Assembly: GCA_002085155.1 (NCBI GenBank)
Contig: NASX01000001.1
Location: 1-64,000, forward strand
Source of the DNA: Sorangiineae bacterium NIC37A_2
Lineage (GTDB): Bacteria; Myxococcota_A; Polyangia; Polyangiales; Polyangiaceae
DNA: 64,000 nucleotides
Reading direction: 5' to 3'
Part shown: piece by piece, positions 1,115 to 11,854 of the stretch
Position numbering within the stretch: position 1 is the first letter of the stretch
Layout of the letters: every line of letters begins with the position of its first letter
Position numbers and translations under genes: made by a program
The notes under the pieces: model-generated
The model's database searches: none
The model's input: only the letters and a program-made list of their open reading frames with translations
What the model was told of the DNA's origin: nothing

Positions 1115-1295
1115 TCGCGCCGAACGGTCGGTGTGTTCTCCCCGGGAAACGAGGGAATCCGGTGTGAATCCGGAGCTGCCCCGCAGCGGTATTGGGAACG
1201 AAACTCACCCCGAAGCACTGAGCGAAGAGCTCGGGAAGCGGTGAGGAGTAGGAGACTCGGAAACGGGTCGAGCCCTGAGCCCGAAGACCTAACGA
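1115..1295 (+). ncRNA. Cobalamin riboswitch (approximate bounds)
   Basis: gGGGAAtccGGTGtGAATCCggagctgCCCCGCagCGGTa, then GAAGCACTGAGC, GGGAAGcGG and GAGCCCGAAGACCT in consensus order, upstream of a TonB-dependent receptor. Confidence 0.93.
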
Positions 1296-1379
1296 CGACG
1301 GCGAGATCCTTCAGGGTTTTCGTCTCTCCGAGTCCTCCGCGGGAGAGGTTCGGAGGCGGTCCAAAGAGACCCGTCTGTC

Positions 1380-3422
1380 ATGCCCTTCTCCTTCCTGTCC
1401 ATCCCTCCCGGGAGGCGCTCGCTCGTCCTCGGGTCGCTGCTCGGCCTCCTGTCGCCCGACCTCCGGGCGGCGGAGCCCTTCGTCGTGCCCGCTGCGGAGC
1501 AGGCCCTGAGCGAGAGCGAAGAGGAGCCCTCCGAGGCAGAAGAGGAGGTTCTCGTCTCGGGCCAAAGGCCGCCGCCGACCCGGGGAACAGACCCCAGCGT
1601 CGCCCACTTCACGATCCGACGCGCCTCTCTCGAGACGCCCGGCCTGCCCATCGGAGACGCGCTGCGTGACGCTCCTGGGATCCAGGTGAGCCAGCTGGGA
1701 GGACTCGGGAGTCCCACGACAGCTCGCCTCCGCGGCGCGACCGCGGCGCAGACTCCTGTCTACTTCGGACGGGTCAAGCTGAACGACGAGGTGGGAGGGG
1801 TGGCCGACCTCGGCTTAGTCCCGACTCACTTCGTCGAATCCATCCAGATCTACCGCTCGAGCGCGCCTCGGACCGCGGCCGAGTTCGGCATCGGAGGCGC
1901 GATCTTCCTCGTCCCTCGCAAGGCACCGGAAACCGGAAGGCTGCTTCGGATGGATCTCGGCAGCTTCGGGACCCGCGGTCTCTCCTTGTCGCGCGGCTAT
2001 TCGTCCGAAGAGCGCACGACTCAGGTATTTGTGAGCTTGGACGGAGCCAAGAACGACTACTCCTTCAAGGACACTCGGGGAACCCTGTTCACTCCCGACG
2101 ACGACCAAACGACCACGCTGAAGAATGCCGACAGCCGAGGTCTCGGAACCTGGATCCACCATCGGGAGCGATTCGGAAAAGTCGAAACCGAGTTCTTCTT
2201 CGGACATGCCAGCCGTGAGCAAGGGGCGGTGAAGTTAGCTTTGGTCCCGACGCGAGAGGCACGTGTCGCCTACGACCGAACGATGGCGCAAATTACGAGC
2301 ACCATCCGCGGCGATCGCTCTCGTTTTGAGTTGCTCTCCGCGGCCATCGTTTCTGAGACCGCCGTGAGCGATCCGCTGCGAGAGCTGAGCCCTTTTTCCG
2401 AGCGGCTCACGACTCCCGGAGAGCGCTTCGAACAAGCGATCCTCGCCGAACAGGACCTCTCCGAGGACATCACGCTCTTCGAACGCCTCAGCGCGAGCAT
2501 CGAGCGCTTCCGCCGCTTCGAACAGCGGGACGGCGCACCGACCGAGGTCCTCTCAGCGGAGCGACTCTCGACCCGCCTCGCCGCTGGTCTTCACTACCGT
2601 CCGACCTCGCTTTTGACCTTCTCGGTCCTCGGCGAGCTCCGTTGCGTCTCGACGACGCCGCTCTCGGCATGCGCTGAGCCCGTTCCCGGGGGGCGAGCCA
2701 GCGCCACCTTCAGTCGCGGCTCCTTCGATGCCTTCGCCTCGCTCGCCCGCGCGGTACGTGTACCGACGCTGAGCGAGCTCTACGGATTCAGTCCCATCAT
2801 GCGCGGCAATCCGCGACTCGAACCCGAGGAAGCGACGACAGGGGAGATCGGCGTGCGCTACGCGGGCCCGGTTCGCGGCGGGCTTCCGCTCTTCTGGATG
2901 GACGCGTCCGCGTTTATCCGAAGCTCGGAGAACCTCGTCTTGTTCCTACGCAGCACGCAGGGATACCTGACGCCCCAGAACCGCGCGTCCTCAAGAACCA
3001 TCGGGGCCGAGCTCGCTCTCGGCCTGAACCCTGGACCCTTTGCCTTCACAGCACAGGCGAGCTGGCTCGATCCCCGCGACACCAGCCCGAATCGGACGAC
3101 GAAGAACGATTTCCTCCCGTTCCTCTCGGCGGTGACCGCTTCGGCGACGGCCCATGTCCGCGTGCTGCATGTTCCCGAAAGCCAAGCGCGCATCGGTGCC
3201 CGCGCCTTCGTTCAATCCTCCCGCTTCTCAGATCCCGCTGGCCTCGGAGTGATCCCGGAACAAGGCAACGTCGACCTCGAAGCCGAGGCCGGCTTTGCTC
3301 ACGGAGAGCTCACTCTGCGAGCCAGCTTGCGCAACCTGTTCGACTCTGCCCGCTTCGACGTCGTGGGGTATCCGCTCCCCGGCAGGAGCCTCTTCTTCAG
3401 TTTGGAGACCCGATTCAAATGA
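1380..3422 (+). CDS. TonB-dependent receptor, BtuB-like
   Basis: 680 aa with plug-like N-terminus (GDALRDAPGIQVSQLGGLGSPTTARLRG) and beta-barrel-like C-terminus; downstream of cobalamin riboswitch and upstream of BtuFCD-like genes. Confidence 0.9.
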   Translation: MPFSFLSIPPGRRSLVLGSLLGLLSPDLRAAEPFVVPAAEQALSESEEEPSEAEEEVLVSGQRPPPTRGTDPSVAHFTIRRASLETPGLPIGDALRDAPGIQVSQLGGLGSPTTARLRGATAAQTPVYFGRVKLNDEVGGVADLGLVPTHFVESIQIYRSSAPRTAAEFGIGGAIFLVPRKAPETGRLLRMDLGSFGTRGLSLSRGYSSEERTTQVFVSLDGAKNDYSFKDTRGTLFTPDDDQTTTLKNADSRGLGTWIHHRERFGKVETEFFFGHASREQGAVKLALVPTREARVAYDRTMAQITSTIRGDRSRFELLSAAIVSETAVSDPLRELSPFSERLTTPGERFEQAILAEQDLSEDITLFERLSASIERFRRFEQRDGAPTEVLSAERLSTRLAAGLHYRPTSLLTFSVLGELRCVSTTPLSACAEPVPGGRASATFSRGSFDAFASLARAVRVPTLSELYGFSPIMRGNPRLEPEEATTGEIGVRYAGPVRGGLPLFWMDASAFIRSSENLVLFLRSTQGYLTPQNRASSRTIGAELALGLNPGPFAFTAQASWLDPRDTSPNRTTKNDFLPFLSAVTASATAHVRVLHVPESQARIGARAFVQSSRFSDPAGLGVIPEQGNVDLEAEAGFAHGELTLRASLRNLFDSARFDVVGYPLPGRSLFFSLETRFK

Positions 3423-4771
3423 AAACTATACATTTTAGCACGATCCTCTTCAGTTTCACGTTTGCCCTCGGAGGATCCCTCCTCAGCCTCGCCTGCCAAG
3501 GCGACACCACGGACGAAACGGGCCAAGCAGGCGCTCAGGGGCTCGGCGGCGCCGATCGGGGCTCCGGCGGCAGTGCGGGCGAAAGTGGCTCAGGGGGAAG
3601 CGCGGGCGAGGCGGGCGATCCCGAACCTGCCGAAGGCTGCCCCTCAGGCGTCGCTCTGTTGATGAGCGACTTCCTCTCCACGGAGATCGCTCTGCTCGAT
3701 CTCTCGGGCAGAGTGCAAAATCCCTCCTTCCTGTCGACAGGTTCGACGGCCACGGACGGGCTCGCCTTCCCCTTGAGCGGCGACGTCTTCGTCCCCCTCG
3801 GCCTTGCAGGCGAGCTCGTCGTGCTCGATCGCCACGGAACGAACGTCGTGAGCTTCGTGAATCCGGAGACAGGCAAGGTCCGCGCACAGCTGCCCGTCGG
3901 CATGGGTTTCGAGTCGAATCCTTACGACTACCTCCAGCTCAGCAAAGACGAGGGCGTGCTGCTCCGTTTCGCTCAGAACCCGAACCCGGGCAGCCTGGAT
4001 TTCGACGAAGGAGGAGATCTCCTCTTTATCGACAGCAAACAGGCCAAGATCACGTCGAACGTCGTCTTTGAAAGCTACGAGGGCCTCCCCCCAGGTCCCT
4101 CTCACGTCACCCTTCTTGGTGACGATTTGTTCGTGACGCTGGAGCGCTTGTCCGCGGATTATACGAAGACCGGAGAGGCCATGATCGTGCCGGTGCCTCT
4201 TGCGACGCGGACGATCGGAGAACCGATCGCGCTTGCGGGTCTCAAGTCCTGTGGTGCGCTCGTTCCGGTACCCGGTCGTGACGAGGTCGCCACCGCCTGC
4301 ACCGGACGCATCGATACGACGGGGGAAGCCGAAGACCTGAGCCAGAGCGCTCTCGTCTTCTTCGACGCGGGCTCGCGGCCCCTCCGAGAGCTCCGCCGCA
4401 TCCCCGCGAGCGCCATCGCCGGCGAACCTCTTCAAGCTCAGATCGCCTTTGCGAGCGAGAAGGTCGCGCTCGTGAAAACCCTCACGGCCTACGGCGGCGA
4501 CAAGCACAATCGGCTCCTTGCGGTGGATCTCGAGACCGAAGAGACGACCGAGCTTCTCGAAGCTCTCCCGGACAGCATGGGTCGGGGACGAGGCGTGAGC
4601 TTTGGCACAATCCATTGTGCGCCCGGCTGCGCAGACGTCTGTCTCATGCCAGACGGGAGCCGAGGTGAGGTCGCGAGGATCAAGGTGCAGAGCGGACGAG
4701 CTCGCCTCCAGAGCCCCACGCTCCTCGAAGACACAGCCGGCTTGCCCCCCGCGAACCTCGGCAGCTACTAA
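3419..4771 (+). CDS. Lipoprotein with Gly/Ser-rich linker and probable beta-propeller-like domain, in B12 uptake operon
   Basis: Signal peptide with lipobox LSLAC, linker GAQGLGGADRGSGGSAGESGSGG; ATGA overlap with the receptor stop codon. Confidence 0.75.
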   Translation: MKTIHFSTILFSFTFALGGSLLSLACQGDTTDETGQAGAQGLGGADRGSGGSAGESGSGGSAGEAGDPEPAEGCPSGVALLMSDFLSTEIALLDLSGRVQNPSFLSTGSTATDGLAFPLSGDVFVPLGLAGELVVLDRHGTNVVSFVNPETGKVRAQLPVGMGFESNPYDYLQLSKDEGVLLRFAQNPNPGSLDFDEGGDLLFIDSKQAKITSNVVFESYEGLPPGPSHVTLLGDDLFVTLERLSADYTKTGEAMIVPVPLATRTIGEPIALAGLKSCGALVPVPGRDEVATACTGRIDTTGEAEDLSQSALVFFDAGSRPLRELRRIPASAIAGEPLQAQIAFASEKVALVKTLTAYGGDKHNRLLAVDLETEETTELLEALPDSMGRGRGVSFGTIHCAPGCADVCLMPDGSRGEVARIKVQSGRARLQSPTLLEDTAGLPPANLGSY

Positions 4772-4795
4772 TCACTAGGGGACTCACCGCTCACT

Positions 4796-5701
4796 ATGAA
4801 ACAAGAGCTCTTCGCCTTCGGCGTTTGCCTTCTGTCGGCTGTCTGGGCGAAGAGCATCGGCCTGAGCGGTTCTCCCGTTTCCGCAATTCATTCCGGCGAC
4901 CTCGCTACCCGTGAGCTCAGGCTGCCCGAAAGGGCCCCCGAGCGCGTCGTGACCGCCGCGCTCTACCCAGAAGAGCTCTTGCTCGATTTGCTCGAACCCG
5001 AGCGCTGGGTCGGGATCTCCCGCATTGTGGACTGGCCCGGTTCCTCGGCCGTTTCCTCGCGCTTTCCGAAGAACAGTCGACGGGTGAGCGGATCTCCTGA
5101 AGCGATCCTGAGCCTGAATCCGGACCTGGTGATCGTCTCCGATTACACCCTCGCCGCGACCGAGGTACTCCTCAGGAGCGCTGGGGTGCCGGTCTGGCGC
5201 GTGCCCACACCTCGAACTCTCTCTGAGCTCTTCGAGCAGTGGCGACGGCTCGGCGACCTCGTGCATCGAAGCCCCCGAGCCACCGAGCTCGTGAACGCCG
5301 CTCAAGCGCGCCTCGAAAAGCTTCGAGGCGCGCTGCCCCCTCTCGGGGCCCTCTTCATCCAGGGCCGTTATGCCTACGCGAGCGGCGCGCTCCAGGTCGA
5401 TTGCCCGACCCAGGCAGGACTCCAGAACCTCCTGTCCGACGACGGGCGCGGTCCGACTCCCCTGCTCTCGGAAGAGGAACTCGCTGTCCTCACGCCCGCT
5501 CTCGTATTCCTCGGAGCCCCCGTGGAAACAGCGCGAAAACTCGAACCGAACGAGCCCCTTCCCGAGCTGCCCCCGGGGGCTTTTCTCGGAAAGAAGCCGC
5601 GGGTGTTCCTGATCCCGTCGAGCCTCATGGGCTCCATGAGCCAGCTCGCCCTCGATGCCTGTGAGCTTTACGTGAGCTTGGTGCAAGAGGAGGAGTCATG
5701 A
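4796..5701 (+). CDS. ABC transporter substrate-binding protein, BtuF-like
   Basis: RVVTAALYPEELLLDLLEPERWVGIS ... ILSLNPDLVIVSDY, typical of the BtuF/FepB periplasmic fold; followed by permease and ATPase. Confidence 0.85.
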   Translation: MKQELFAFGVCLLSAVWAKSIGLSGSPVSAIHSGDLATRELRLPERAPERVVTAALYPEELLLDLLEPERWVGISRIVDWPGSSAVSSRFPKNSRRVSGSPEAILSLNPDLVIVSDYTLAATEVLLRSAGVPVWRVPTPRTLSELFEQWRRLGDLVHRSPRATELVNAAQARLEKLRGALPPLGALFIQGRYAYASGALQVDCPTQAGLQNLLSDDGRGPTPLLSEEELAVLTPALVFLGAPVETARKLEPNEPLPELPPGAFLGKKPRVFLIPSSLMGSMSQLALDACELYVSLVQEEES

Positions 5702-6696
5702 TGCCTGCCGGGCGTCTTCTCTCTTGGCTCGCTGGGCTCAGTACCCTCGTGCTCCTCGCCGCGCTCGTGGGGCCTGTGCTTGGTCCCGTGGAGACGGTCC
5801 GCGAGCTCCTCATGGGATCTCCCAATTCTCTCGTGCGTTCAATCGTCGTCGACATGCGCCTGCCGCGCGCTCTTGTCGCGGCGCTGATCGGCGGCGCCCT
5901 CGGAGCTTCTGGCGCCGCGCTCCAGGGCCTCTTCCGCAACCCCCTCGCCGATCCCGCCATCCTCGGCGTCTCCCCGACGGCTGCCTTCTTCTGTCAGCTT
6001 GTGCTGTTCCTGTTCGGCGCGGCGAGCGCCCTCTTCACGCTCCCACTCGCGGCCTGTTTCGGCGCGTTGCTCTCGACCGCGCTCTTGACCTTCCTGCTCC
6101 GGCCGAGATCCTTCTCCAACCGGGACCTCTTGCTCCTCGCCGGTATCGCTCTCGGACAGGTCATGGGGGCGGCGAGCGCTCTCTTGCTCTCCCTCTCCGT
6201 CTCCGATCACTCCCGCGCTCAGCGTTTGCTCCTCTGGATCCTGGGCAATCTCGACGGAAAAACCTGGGCGCAGGTCGCGCTGGGCCTTTTGCCTGTCACA
6301 GTCGGAGTCGTCAGCTTGCTGCGCACAGGTCCCGCTCTCGACGCGCTCACTTTCGGCTCCGCTACCGCCACCTCCCTCGGAGTCGATATTCGACGCACCG
6401 AACGCGCTGTCGCCCTCTGGGCTTCCGTCTTGAGCGGGCTCACCGTAGCTCTCGGAGGCATCATCGGCTTCGTCGGCTTGCTCGCTCCCCATTTCGTCCG
6501 CAGCTTCGGCAGCTCCCGGCACCAGCGCGTGATCGCCGAGAGCGCCCTTTGTGGTGCGTGTTTGCTCGTCGGCGCTGACGCTCTCGCACGCTGTGTCCTC
6601 GCCCCGGTCGAGTTGCCCGTCGGGGTCATCACCGGCACGCTGGGCGCACCCGTGTTCGCCTTCCTCCTTTGGCGCCGGTTCCGGGGGGCCTCGTGA
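5698..6696 (+). CDS. FecCD/BtuC family ABC transporter permease
   Basis: RLPRALVAALIGGALGASGAALQGLFRNPLADPAILGVSPTAA is the classic FecCD signature; 4-nt overlap with upstream gene. Confidence 0.93.
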   Translation: MMPAGRLLSWLAGLSTLVLLAALVGPVLGPVETVRELLMGSPNSLVRSIVVDMRLPRALVAALIGGALGASGAALQGLFRNPLADPAILGVSPTAAFFCQLVLFLFGAASALFTLPLAACFGALLSTALLTFLLRPRSFSNRDLLLLAGIALGQVMGAASALLLSLSVSDHSRAQRLLLWILGNLDGKTWAQVALGLLPVTVGVVSLLRTGPALDALTFGSATATSLGVDIRRTERAVALWASVLSGLTVALGGIIGFVGLLAPHFVRSFGSSRHQRVIAESALCGACLLVGADALARCVLAPVELPVGVITGTLGAPVFAFLLWRRFRGAS

Positions 6697-7466
6697 CAGA
6701 GATCACTCAGCGCTCCACAGAGAGCCCCCTCCTGGAGCTCGACGTCGAAAGTGTCGAGCGAGGGGGCCGCAGCGTGCTCTCCGACGTCCGCTTCGCGCTC
6801 CAGCCGGGCGAGCTCCTGTTCGTGGTCGGACCCAACGGTTCCGGCAAGTCGACGCTCATCGACGTCTGTCTCGATCTGGTGCCCGCTCCTCGCGCGAAGG
6901 TGCGCTATTCGGGCCTGCTCTTCTCCAGCCTCCCCTACCGCGAGCGCCCTCGCCTCGCGTCCCTCGTCGGTCGTGAAGAAAACGACGCCCTCGGCTTCAC
7001 CGTCGACGAGGCGCTCGCTCTTGCTTCCGCGCAGAAGCAAGATGGTCCGGGACGCGCAGTGGCCCGCAGTCTCCCCTGGCTCACCGAAGAGCTCCGCTCA
7101 CGCAGACTGGCCCATCTTTCTCAGGGCGAACGCCAGCGCGTCCATCTTCTGCGCGGCTTCCTCCAGGACGCGAGCGTACTGTTCTGGGACGAAGCCACGG
7201 CGCACCTCGATCTCTCCCACCGGGAGGAGGCCCTCAGCGCGCTCCGCGCCTTCACCGCGAGCGGACGGGCGGCCCTCGTCGTCGTCCATGAGCTGGAGCT
7301 CGCCCTCCGCTACGCGACCCGGCTGCTCGTACTTCACCACGGGAAAATGGTCGCCCTCGGGACACCGGAGCAATGCCTGTCCCAGGGGCTCCTCCGAGAG
7401 GTGTTCGGATTGAACGCCGCGGTGGCCCCGAGCGGTGCATCACTCACGCTCAGTTGGCTTCCTTGA
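6693..7466 (+). CDS. ABC transporter ATP-binding protein, BtuD/FepC-like
   Basis: Walker A GPNGSGKST, signature LSQGERQRV, Walker B VLFWDEATAHLD; GTG start overlaps the permease stop (GTGA). Confidence 0.93.
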   Translation: MTEITQRSTESPLLELDVESVERGGRSVLSDVRFALQPGELLFVVGPNGSGKSTLIDVCLDLVPAPRAKVRYSGLLFSSLPYRERPRLASLVGREENDALGFTVDEALALASAQKQDGPGRAVARSLPWLTEELRSRRLAHLSQGERQRVHLLRGFLQDASVLFWDEATAHLDLSHREEALSALRAFTASGRAALVVVHELELALRYATRLLVLHHGKMVALGTPEQCLSQGLLREVFGLNAAVAPSGASLTLSWLP

Positions 7467-7625
7467 CGCGTCGGCCCCGGGGCGCTCGTCTGGTGACAGC
7501 AGAACCCGGCGACCCGCGCCCAGGCGGCAAAAATTGCTTGAATCAGAGACCTCGAGCCGGCAGGCCCCTCCGGCGGCCATGTTTTGGTTGTCAGACAGGA
7601 AGAAAAGAGCCAGCTTCCGAGCCCC

Positions 7626-10600
7626 ATGTCTGCGCCCCTGGCTGCCACCCTCCGAGAACTCGCCAAAAACCGCATCCTGATCATCGATGGTGCGATGGGA
7701 ACCTGCATCCAAGGCTACGGGCTCAAGGAAGCGGACTACCGCGGGGAGCACTTTCGGAACTCGAAGCAGGATCTCAAGGGCGACAACGAGCTGCTCGTTC
7801 TGACCCGTCCCGACGTCATCACCGACATCCACGAGCGCTACCTCGCGGCCGGCACGGACATCATCGAGACCAACACCTTCAACGCGACGCGCATCTCCCA
7901 GTCCGAGTACGCCCTCGGGGACATCGCCTACGACCTGAACGTGGCCGCGGCCCAGCTCGCCCGCAAAGCTGCGGAGAAATACTCGACCGCCCACAAGCCT
8001 CGTTTCGTCGCTGGCGCCATCGGACCGCTCAACCGGACGTTGAGTCTCTCGCCCGACGTCAACGATCCCGGTTATCGCGCCGTGACCTTCGATCAGGTGA
8101 AGGACGCATACAAAGAACAGGTCCGCGCGCTGCTCGACGGCGGGGTCGACCTATTTTTGGTCGAGACGATCTTCGACACGCTGAACTGCAAGGCAGCGCT
8201 CGTCGCCATCGACGAGGTCCAACAGGAGCGCGGCGTGGAGCTGCCGCTCATGATCAGCGTCACCTTCTCCGACAAGAGCGGCCGCACCCTCTCCGGCCAA
8301 ACCGTCGACGCGTTCTGGGACTCGGTAGCCCATGCAAGGCCCTTCTCTGTCGGCGCTAACTGTGGGCTCGGCGCTTCCGAGATGCGCCCCTACATCGCCG
8401 AGCTCAGCGCCCTCGCGCCGACCTTGGTCAGCTGTTACCCGAACGCCGGCTTGCCGAACCCGCTCGCACCGACCGGATACGACGAGCTCCCGGAGCAGAC
8501 AGGCGCGCTCCTCGGCGAGTTCGCCCGCGCCGGCATCGTCAACATCGTCGGCGGCTGCTGCGGCACGACTCCCGCCCATATCGAGAAGGTCGCCGAGGCT
8601 GTGCGAGACGTCGAACCCCGTCCGATCGCCGAGCCCAAGATGGTCAGTCGCTTCTCGGGTCTCGAGTCGCTCACGGTCCAAAGCGGTTCCTCGAATTTCA
8701 TCATGGTGGGCGAGCGGACCAACGTCACCGGCAGTAAGAAATTCGCTCGCCTGATCCGCTCCGGTGACTTCAACGCAGCCCTCGAGGTCGCCCTCGAGCA
8801 GGTGCGCGGCGGCGCCAACGTGATCGACGTCAACATGGACGAAGCCATGCTCGACTCCGAGCAGGCGATGACGCGCTTTTTGAACCTTGTCGCCTCTGAG
8901 CCGGAAATCTCCCGCGTTCCGATCATGATCGACAGCTCGCGCTGGTCGGTCATCGAGGCTGGACTCAAATGTGTTCAAGGCAAGTCGATCGTGAACTCGA
9001 TCAGCCTGAAAGAGGGCGAAGAGGAGTTCCTCGAGCGCGCTCGGAAGGTCCGAAGCTACGGCGCCGCGGTCGTGGTCATGGCTTTCGACGAAGAGGGTCA
9101 GGCGGAGAGCGCCGATCGTAAGTTCGCGATCGCCAAGCGCGCCTACGACTTGCTTGTAAACAAGGTCGGTTTCCCGGCCACCGACATCATCTTCGATCTC
9201 AACGTGTTCGCGGTCGCGACCGGCATCGAAGGACACAACCGCTTCGCCATCGAGCTGATCGAAGCGATCCGCCGTGTCAAAGCCGAGCTACCCGGCGCGC
9301 TCACGAGCGGCGGTATCTCGAACCTTTCCTTCTCTTTCCGCGGCAACGACGTCGTCCGCGAGGCGATGCACTCGGCCTTCCTTTATCATGCGACCAAAGC
9401 CGGCCTCGACATGGGCATCGTGAACGCGGGTCAGCTCGCCGTCTACGAAGACATTCCGAAGCCCCTGCTCGAGGCTGTCGAAGATGTCATCTTCGATCGG
9501 CGCCCGGACGCGACCGAGCGCCTTGTCGCGCTCGCCGATCAAGTCAAAGGCCAAGGCCAAAAGCGCGAGCTCGATCTCTCCTGGCGCGAACAGCCCGTCG
9601 AAGGGCGCATCTCCCACGCGATGGTGCACGGCTTCGTCGAGTTCATCGAAGCCGATTGCGAAGAGGCGCGCCAGAAGCTCGGCTCGCCCCTCAAGGTCAT
9701 CGAAGGCCCCATGATGAGCGGCATGAGCATCGTCGGCGACCTGTTCGGCGAAGGAAAAATGTTTCTGCCGCAGGTGGTCAAGAGCGCCCGCGTCATGAAG
9801 AAGGGCGTCGCCTATCTTGAGCCCTATATGGCCGCCGAGCGCGTCGAGGGCCAAACGCAGGGGCGCGTGCTCATGGCCACGGTGAAAGGTGATGTCCACG
9901 ACATCGGCAAGAACATCGTGGGTGTGGTCCTCGGCTGCAACAACTACGAGGTCATCGACCTCGGCGTCATGGTGCCTTGCGACAAGATCCTCGACGCGGC
10001 TATCGAGAAGAACGTCGACGTGATCGGCCTCTCCGGGCTCATCACGCCGTCGCTCGACGAGATGGTCACGGTGGCGCGCGAGATAAAGCGCCGCCAGATC
10101 AAGAAGCCCCTGCTCATCGGCGGCGCCACCACGAGCCGCCAGCACACGGCGGTCAAGATCGCTCCCGAGGCGGACGTCCCGGTCATCCACGTGCTCGACG
10201 CCTCCCGCGCCGTCAACGTCGTCGCCAGCTTGCTCGACGACAAGCAACGGGACGACTACCTCGCGAAGAACGCCGAAGAGCAGGTCCGCTTGCGCGAGGT
10301 CTTCGGCGGCAAGCAGAAGCGCCCCCTCATCACGATCGAAGAGGCCCGCAAGCGCCGAGAAAAGCTAGACTTCTCGCCTCAGAACCTCGCCACTCCGAGC
10401 TTCTTCGGACGTAAGGTTCTCGCGGATATTCCGCTCTCGGAGCTGGTTCCCTTCATCGACTGGTCGTTTTTCTTCACCGCCTGGGAAATTCCGGGGCGTT
10501 ACCCGCGTATCCTCGAGGATGAGAAGTACGGTGCTGCGGCCCGCGAACTCTTCGAAAACGGCCAGAAGATCCTGAACAAGCTCATCGAAGACGGTCGCCT

Positions 10601-11303
10601 GAAAGCGGCCGCGGTCTATGGCTTCTGGCCTGCGAACTCGGACGGCGACGACATTGTCCTGTACGAGGATGAACACAGCTCGAAGGAAGTCGCGCGCTTC
10701 CCGATGCTCCGGGAGCAGTCGAGCCGCGGTGAGAACGATCCCTGCGTTTGCTTGGCCGATTTCATCGCGCCTCAGGAACTCGGCCTGCGGGACGCGATCG
10801 GTGCCTTCGCCGTGACTGGTGGCATCAACTCAGAGGAAATCGCCCGCGAGTTCCAGAACGACCACGACGACTATTCATCGATCATGGTCAAGGCGCTCGC
10901 CGACCGCCTCGCAGAGGCCGGAGCCGAGTATCTCCACGCTCGGGCCCGCCGCGAGTGGGGTTACGAGAACGAGAGCTTGAAGAACGAAGACCTGATCGCC
11001 GAGAAGTATCGTGGCATCCGACCGGCCTTCGGCTACCCCGCTTGCCCCGATCACACGCCGAAGAAGACTCTCTTCTCTCTGCTCGGGGCGAACGAAGTCG
11101 GCATGTCCCTCACCGAGGGTCTCTCCATGCTGCCCGCCGCTTCTGTGAGCGGTCTCTACTTCGCCCACCCCGATGCTCACTACTTCAACGTGAATCGGGT
11201 CGGCCGCGATCAGCTCGAGGACTATTCTCGAAGGGTCGGCCGCACGCTCTCTGAGAGCGAAAAGTGGCTCGCATCCAATCTCGGCTACACCCCCGGGAGC
11301 TAA
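7626..11303 (+). CDS. metH: Cobalamin-dependent methionine synthase
   Basis: Homocysteine-binding ([26 protein letters not shown]), pterin-binding, B12-binding ([29 protein letters not shown]) and AdoMet-activation ([15 protein letters not shown]) domains. Confidence 0.97.
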
Positions 11304-11854
11304 CCATCTGATCGGGAGCTCCAGGTCACTTCTGGGGCTCCTGCTCGCGCATTTGCCCGACGCGCGAGCACGAAGAGCAGGTCGCTCAACCGGTTCAAGT
11401 AGACGCCGAGCTCGCTCCGAAGCCCTGCTTCGCTCGCGACACGGAAAAACTCGCGCTCTGCCCGGCGACAAACGGCCCGTGCGAGGTGTAGCCGGGCGCC
11501 CGCTTCCGAACCTCCCGGCAGGATAAAATTCATGAGCTTTGGAAGTTCGGCCTCAGCGCGGTCGATGAGCGCTTCGAGCTCCTCGATGTCGTCACGATCG
11601 ATGAGCTTGAGTCGGAGTTTTTCAGCCGCACCGGGAGCGCAAGCCAGCTCTGCTCCCAAGACGAAGAGGTCTCTTTGGATCCCTTGAAGATCTGCGGCTT
11701 GCTCACCGTCAAGAGCGACGCACGCGAGACCGAGCGCAGCATTCAGCTCGTCCACAGTCCCATACACTTCGACGCGAGCCTCTCCCTTGCCCACGCGCTC
11801 TCCCCCAAACAGGCCCGTCTCTCCCGCGTCGCCGGTCTTTGTATAGATCTTCAT
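11300..11854 (-). CDS. Cob(I)alamin adenosyltransferase, PduO/MMAB type
   Basis: [23 protein letters not shown] ... [11 protein letters not shown] ... [25 protein letters not shown]. Confidence 0.95.

Follow-up and report, generated by a model that had tools for sequence, protein, structure and literature searches.

Downstream of a cobalamin riboswitch and a gene for a BtuB-like receptor, the window (the whole stretch of 64,000 nucleotides analyzed here) encodes a 450-aa protein (positions 3419-4771) that, judging from its modeled fold and conserved genomic context, is likely a beta-propeller lipoprotein, anchored in the outer membrane, that captures cobamides for BtuB in the manner of BtuG. 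The proposal gives a testable function to a family that lacks annotation and is spread over Myxococcota, and thereby new candidate cobamide binders. We infer that the lipoprotein binds cobamides, is exposed on the cell surface and forms a physical complex with BtuB. We describe it as BtuG-like rather than as a member of the BtuG family because sequence homology to BtuG was sought and none was found.

The riboswitch-controlled operon

The features of the cobalamin-related cluster are as follows.

1115-1310, + strand: cobalamin riboswitch aptamer RF00174, operon leader (83.8 bits; full-length match, 1-189)
1380-3422, + strand: btuB-like TonB-dependent receptor, 680 aa (Pfam Plug and TonB_dep_Rec)
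3419-4771, + strand: putative BtuG-like beta-propeller lipoprotein, 450 aa (ORF, lipobox, AlphaFold2 with Foldseek, homologs)
4796-5701, + strand: btuF-like periplasmic binding protein, 301 aa (PF01497, Peripla_BP_2, 44.3 bits)
5698-6696, + strand: btuC-like permease, 332 aa, ATGA overlap with btuF (PF01032, FecCD, 270.8 bits)
6693-7466, + strand: btuD-like ATPase (PF00005, ABC_tran, 69.6 bits)
7626-11303, + strand: metH, cobalamin-dependent methionine synthase (NF007024, 1960 bits; TIGR02082, 1652 bits)
11300-11854, - strand: PduO-type ATP:cob(I)alamin adenosyltransferase (PF01923, E 1.1e-57)

The riboswitch match (E 4e-19, against a bit-score cut-off of 31.5) lies 70 nt ahead of the receptor start and is the sole cobalamin riboswitch detected in the 5.0-Mb genome assembly; RNA folding of the operon leader (z -1.3) added nothing informative to the Rfam match. 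The order riboswitch-btuB-propeller gene-btuF-btuC-btuD is followed by metH, a B12 user that adjoins the operon, and each ORF junction across the operon is a 4-nt overlap except for the 24-nt gap between the propeller gene and btuF. At the first of these junctions, the ATG of the propeller gene (3419-3421) shares the four nucleotides ATGA with the TGA of the receptor gene (3420-3422). The btuD gene probably starts at the GTG at 6693, which overlaps the btuC stop; the mechanically delimited ORF begins with the TTG at 6669. The top NCBIfam model for the permease is BtuC (218.9 bits, under the equivalog cut-off). The adenosyltransferase gene is convergent with metH, so that the B12 cluster extends from about 1115 to 11854.

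CbiC/CobH and CobS were not found in the genome, which has metH, in line with a need for B12 from outside. Against this, the genome encodes MetE beside the B12-dependent MetH, so B12 may be non-essential, that is, advantageous but not strictly required for methionine synthesis.

In a comparison of the receptor with PDB sequences, the first nine matches are all B12 receptors, with the Bacteroides BtuB of BtuBG complexes in the lead (8bmx_C, 7e-20) and Bacteroides BtuB2 and BtuB3 ahead of BtuB of Escherichia coli. A profile of 39 receptor relatives likewise puts BtuB on top (E 8e-44), the next receptor type following at 1e-30. NCBIfam is ambiguous as to the substrate, given that the myxochelin-receptor model MxcH (102.7 bits) and the model TonB-B12 (71.4 bits) both score far below cut-off. 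Thus, the first-pass annotation, which had read from the DNA letters a cobalamin riboswitch, a BtuB-like receptor, a 450-aa lipoprotein with lipobox LSLAC and a Gly/Ser linker starting within the receptor stop codon, and BtuFCD-like genes downstream, is borne out by the same-strand RF00174 match, the PDB sequence and profile matches of the receptor, the ORF coordinates and protein sequence, and the Peripla_BP_2, FecCD and ABC_tran matches, respectively.

The lipoprotein and its predicted structure

The N-terminus of the protein encoded at 3419-4771, MKTIHFSTILFSFTFALGGSLLSLAC followed by QGD, is a signal peptide with the lipobox LSLAC at residues 22-26. The residues past the lipobox Cys are QGDTTDE; a signal for the surface export of lipoproteins has been defined only in Bacteroidetes. 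Residues ~35-70 form a Gly/Ser-rich linker to the propeller part (~71-450), which is acidic (computed pI 4.6), as would fit a cationic ligand, although this feature is non-specific. Strongly conserved in the family are G121, D122, R138, Q157, N167, D170, R183, D200 and C294.

The protein has no match in Pfam, NCBIfam, PHROGs or PDB sequences, and neither DUF4465 nor DUF4374 was matched in its family. No BtuG was found by phmmer, with the family profile or with single members searched against PDB chains at E values up to 10; the published BtuG search used BLASTP with E < 1e-10 (PMC6143338). This lack of detectable sequence homology counts against the BtuG-like reading.

AlphaFold2, run with 38 sequences, predicted an all-beta propeller (pLDDT 93.2, pTM 0.92). 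When this model was searched with Foldseek against 350,542 PDB chains, places 1-16 were all taken by XusB or BtuG, with XusB first (E 1e-11 to 2e-9, TM-score by target up to 0.77); the first other match was an archaeal YVTN propeller (2.5e-9). The alignment spans the whole of BtuG2, and the propeller assignment is based on this fold match, not on a blade count. The propeller suggested by the first-pass annotation is thus supported by model quality and by the XusB and BtuG matches. We also modeled L136, a divergent homolog from a different family within Myxococcota that is about 23% identical to the window protein (pLDDT 93.3). For this homolog, BtuG1, BtuG2 and BtuG3 fill ranks 1-14 (1e-12 to 5e-11); the next match is at 4e-9, and XusB, NirN and other propellers trail BtuG by about two orders of magnitude. 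No unrelated propeller lipoprotein suitable as a specificity control for Foldseek was found in the window.

Distribution of the family and linkage to riboswitches and btuB

The single-protein query detected homologs in 93 of 145 related genomes, the weakest matches covering the signal and linker alone, and the profile query in 107 of 379 sampled Myxococcota genomes. Named relatives, identified with the tighter alignment A2, are found in Polyangiaceae and other Myxococcota, including Sorangium cellulosum and Minicystis rosea. A scan of genome contigs with the single protein yielded no match; outside the phylum, the family was sought with two peptide patterns. One member of the otherwise myxococcal family is encoded on a contig titled Klebsiella pneumoniae (L133, CAMDBH010000008.1), which is probably a mislabeled metagenome bin.

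To assess the genomic linkage, we compared 60 loci encoding the family, with btuB status assigned by a profile search for a receptor directly upstream. Of these loci, 44 contain a cobalamin riboswitch, compared with an expectation of about 0.0035 per 11-kb locus calculated from 57 riboswitches in ~179 Mb (17 genomes). Both a riboswitch and btuB are present in 33 loci, a riboswitch only in 11, btuB only in 8 and neither in 8, so that 52 of the 60 loci have a riboswitch or an adjacent btuB; the eight with neither count against the B12-capture reading. In the 11 riboswitch-only loci, the propeller gene itself follows the riboswitch, in most cases at a distance of 25-165 nt. A riboswitch immediately 5' of the propeller gene, no more than about 165 nt away, occurs in the majority of these loci and also in three btuB loci; the loci with this arrangement are L047, L062, L063, L065, L066, L071-L074, L077 and L079. 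This placement is the strongest evidence that the propeller gene itself, and not just its neighbor, is part of B12 metabolism.

The same association was observed in a set of 61 places sampled across the phylum, only one of which (G089:C27) is shared with the 60-locus set: in 40 of them, a riboswitch lies on the same strand within 5 kb upstream, most often at 2.1-2.6 kb, a distance that leaves space enough for one btuB gene. Among 23 weak homologs (E 1e-8 to 1e-16), picked by sequence without the use of context, 15 likewise have such a riboswitch upstream on the same strand within 5 kb, at about 2.4 kb. A btuB-like receptor is encoded directly upstream on the same strand in 56 of 79 places; together with the riboswitches in the 60 loci, this confirms the co-occurrence with btuB in relatives that had been set beforehand as a test. 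Lipobox-compatible starts were identified in 59 of the 79 family loci and, when the lipobox-compatible codon nearest to the 4-nt-overlap position was chosen, the start coincides exactly with the overlap in 28 of the 56 places with btuB upstream, in addition to the window. The adjacency of BtuFCD is less conserved: at the sensitivity of tblastn, only some 12 of the 60 loci have btuC or btuD nearby.

Alternative roles of the propeller protein

The best surviving alternative, which we nonetheless consider unlikely, is a lipoprotein that faces the periplasm and either buffers cobamides and hands them over from BtuB to BtuF or, like BamB, assists the folding or assembly of BtuB. Given that the surface-export signal is defined for Bacteroidetes only, the protein could face the periplasm, and PQQ_2, the BamB family, was weakly matched by 2 of 39 members of the propeller family (best 3e-5). 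However, the folds closest to it belong to surface proteins capping TonB receptors, with BamB structures ranking far lower, and in several relatives the gene stands by itself behind a riboswitch of its own. Such solitary riboswitch-driven copies are more readily explained for a scavenger than for a factor that assembles BtuB and, together with the fold ranking, led us to judge the BamB-like role the less likely one.

Even less probable is a surface propeller that serves another TonB substrate, a siderophore or metallophore as in the case of XusB, and is merely located in this operon. Because XusB, the first Foldseek match of the window protein, binds siderophores, the ligand is not fixed by the fold alone, and the myxochelin-receptor model outscores the B12-receptor model on the adjacent receptor, both far below cut-off. 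Against this possibility, the linkage throughout the phylum is to riboswitches specific for cobalamin, some of them right before the propeller gene, the PDB profile of the receptor puts BtuB first, and the model of the divergent member matches BtuG two orders of magnitude better than XusB. Modification or remodeling of corrinoids at the surface, with the propeller as enzyme or accessory factor, appears highly improbable, because, although highly conserved Asp, Arg, Asn and Cys residues (for example, D122, R138, N167 and C294) could be catalytic, no enzyme family was matched and these residues equally suit a ligand site or blade structure.

Capture of cobamides for BtuB by a propeller lipoprotein therefore stands as the preferred reading, and the term 'analogous', which the first-pass annotation had used in comparing the protein with BtuG, is apt, as the searches revealed no homology to BtuG at the level of sequence.

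Other genes near cobalamin riboswitches in relatives

Several other genes were observed next to cobalamin riboswitches in related genomes. Lipoproteins encoded directly 3' of such riboswitches in three Polyangiaceae genomes (L195, 457-1707, + strand; L192, 4781-6085, - strand; L190, 4612-6102, - strand) share ~45-48% mutual identity, have no Pfam match and are candidates for a second B12-surface family. Two further lipoproteins directly under cobalamin riboswitches (L197, 312-1727, + strand; L207, 302-1744, + strand) show a distant relationship to the propeller family (hhalign probability 95%, E 1.8e-8) and form a diverged propeller branch driven by riboswitches. A small lipoprotein family near cobalamin riboswitches (L203, 321-1112, + strand; L193, 3136-4377, - strand; ~31% identity, no Pfam match) includes a copy located between the riboswitch and btuB in L203. 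By eye, the gene that follows a cobalamin riboswitch resembles class II ribonucleotide reductase in L188 and L200, and CbiM in L199 and L205.

Proposed mechanism and comparison with known systems

Under the proposed mechanism, low intracellular cobalamin would allow the riboswitch to permit expression of the operon, and a single mRNA would yield the receptor and the propeller by coupled translation. Tethered to its lipid anchor by the flexible Gly/Ser linker, the propeller would grab cobamides at the cell surface via its acidic domain and hand them to its partner BtuB for TonB-driven import, after which BtuFCD would complete their delivery to MetH and the adenosyltransferase.

BtuG, whose affinity for B12 is femtomolar, has been described as exclusive to Bacteroidetes on the basis of BLASTP homology, and was studied in the context of gut competition (PMC6143338); in BtuBG, B12 is passed from BtuG to the receptor (PMC10404256). 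BtuG1, BtuG2 and BtuG3 of Bacteroides (PDB 3dsm, 8bai, 8bmx, 8okv and 8ptd) are likewise propeller lipoproteins encoded next to btuB and associated with a cobalamin riboswitch; they are among the nearest solved folds to the window family, and the window receptor is closest to BtuB of BtuBG complexes. In contrast to BtuG, the window family belongs to another phylum, shows only 9-14% identity in structural alignments, and has, in the window protein, a larger domain (~380 aa compared with ~320-340 aa) along with a long Gly/Ser linker.

XusB is a seven-bladed propeller lipoprotein that partners a TonB receptor for siderophores (PMC13142918). XusB of Bacteroides (PDB 9hqe and 9hqk), the source of the top Foldseek matches, shares with the window protein the propeller lipoprotein architecture and the pairing with a TonB receptor but binds ferric siderophores (enterobactin and ferrichrome), whereas the context of the window family is cobalamin, not iron. 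This context and the lack of a DUF4374 match place the window protein outside the XusB family.

BtuH and BtuJ (DUF4465) are accessory B12-binding lipoproteins encoded in riboswitch-regulated loci (PMC8941943, PMC13398666); they are not known as propellers, and the window family lacks a DUF4465 match in Pfam. B12 binders of the DUF4465 (BtuJ) type reach Myxococcota (PMC13398666), which indicates that accessory B12 capture extends past the gut. The paper on DUF4465 was the only one found when open-licence literature was searched for BtuG in Myxococcota, so that a BtuG-like propeller lipoprotein appears to be new for this phylum, without an earlier description in the literature searched. A phylum-wide BtuG-like system would make capture lids of B12 receptors a general solution, environmental bacteria included. 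More tentatively, Myxococcota might combine a BtuG-type lid on BtuB, of independent origin or very anciently diverged, with several lipoprotein families under or beside cobalamin riboswitches, namely a diverged propeller and two families lacking Pfam matches; if so, these soil bacteria would possess a multi-component surface apparatus for B12 scavenging that parallels the BtuG, BtuH and BtuJ proteins of the gut.
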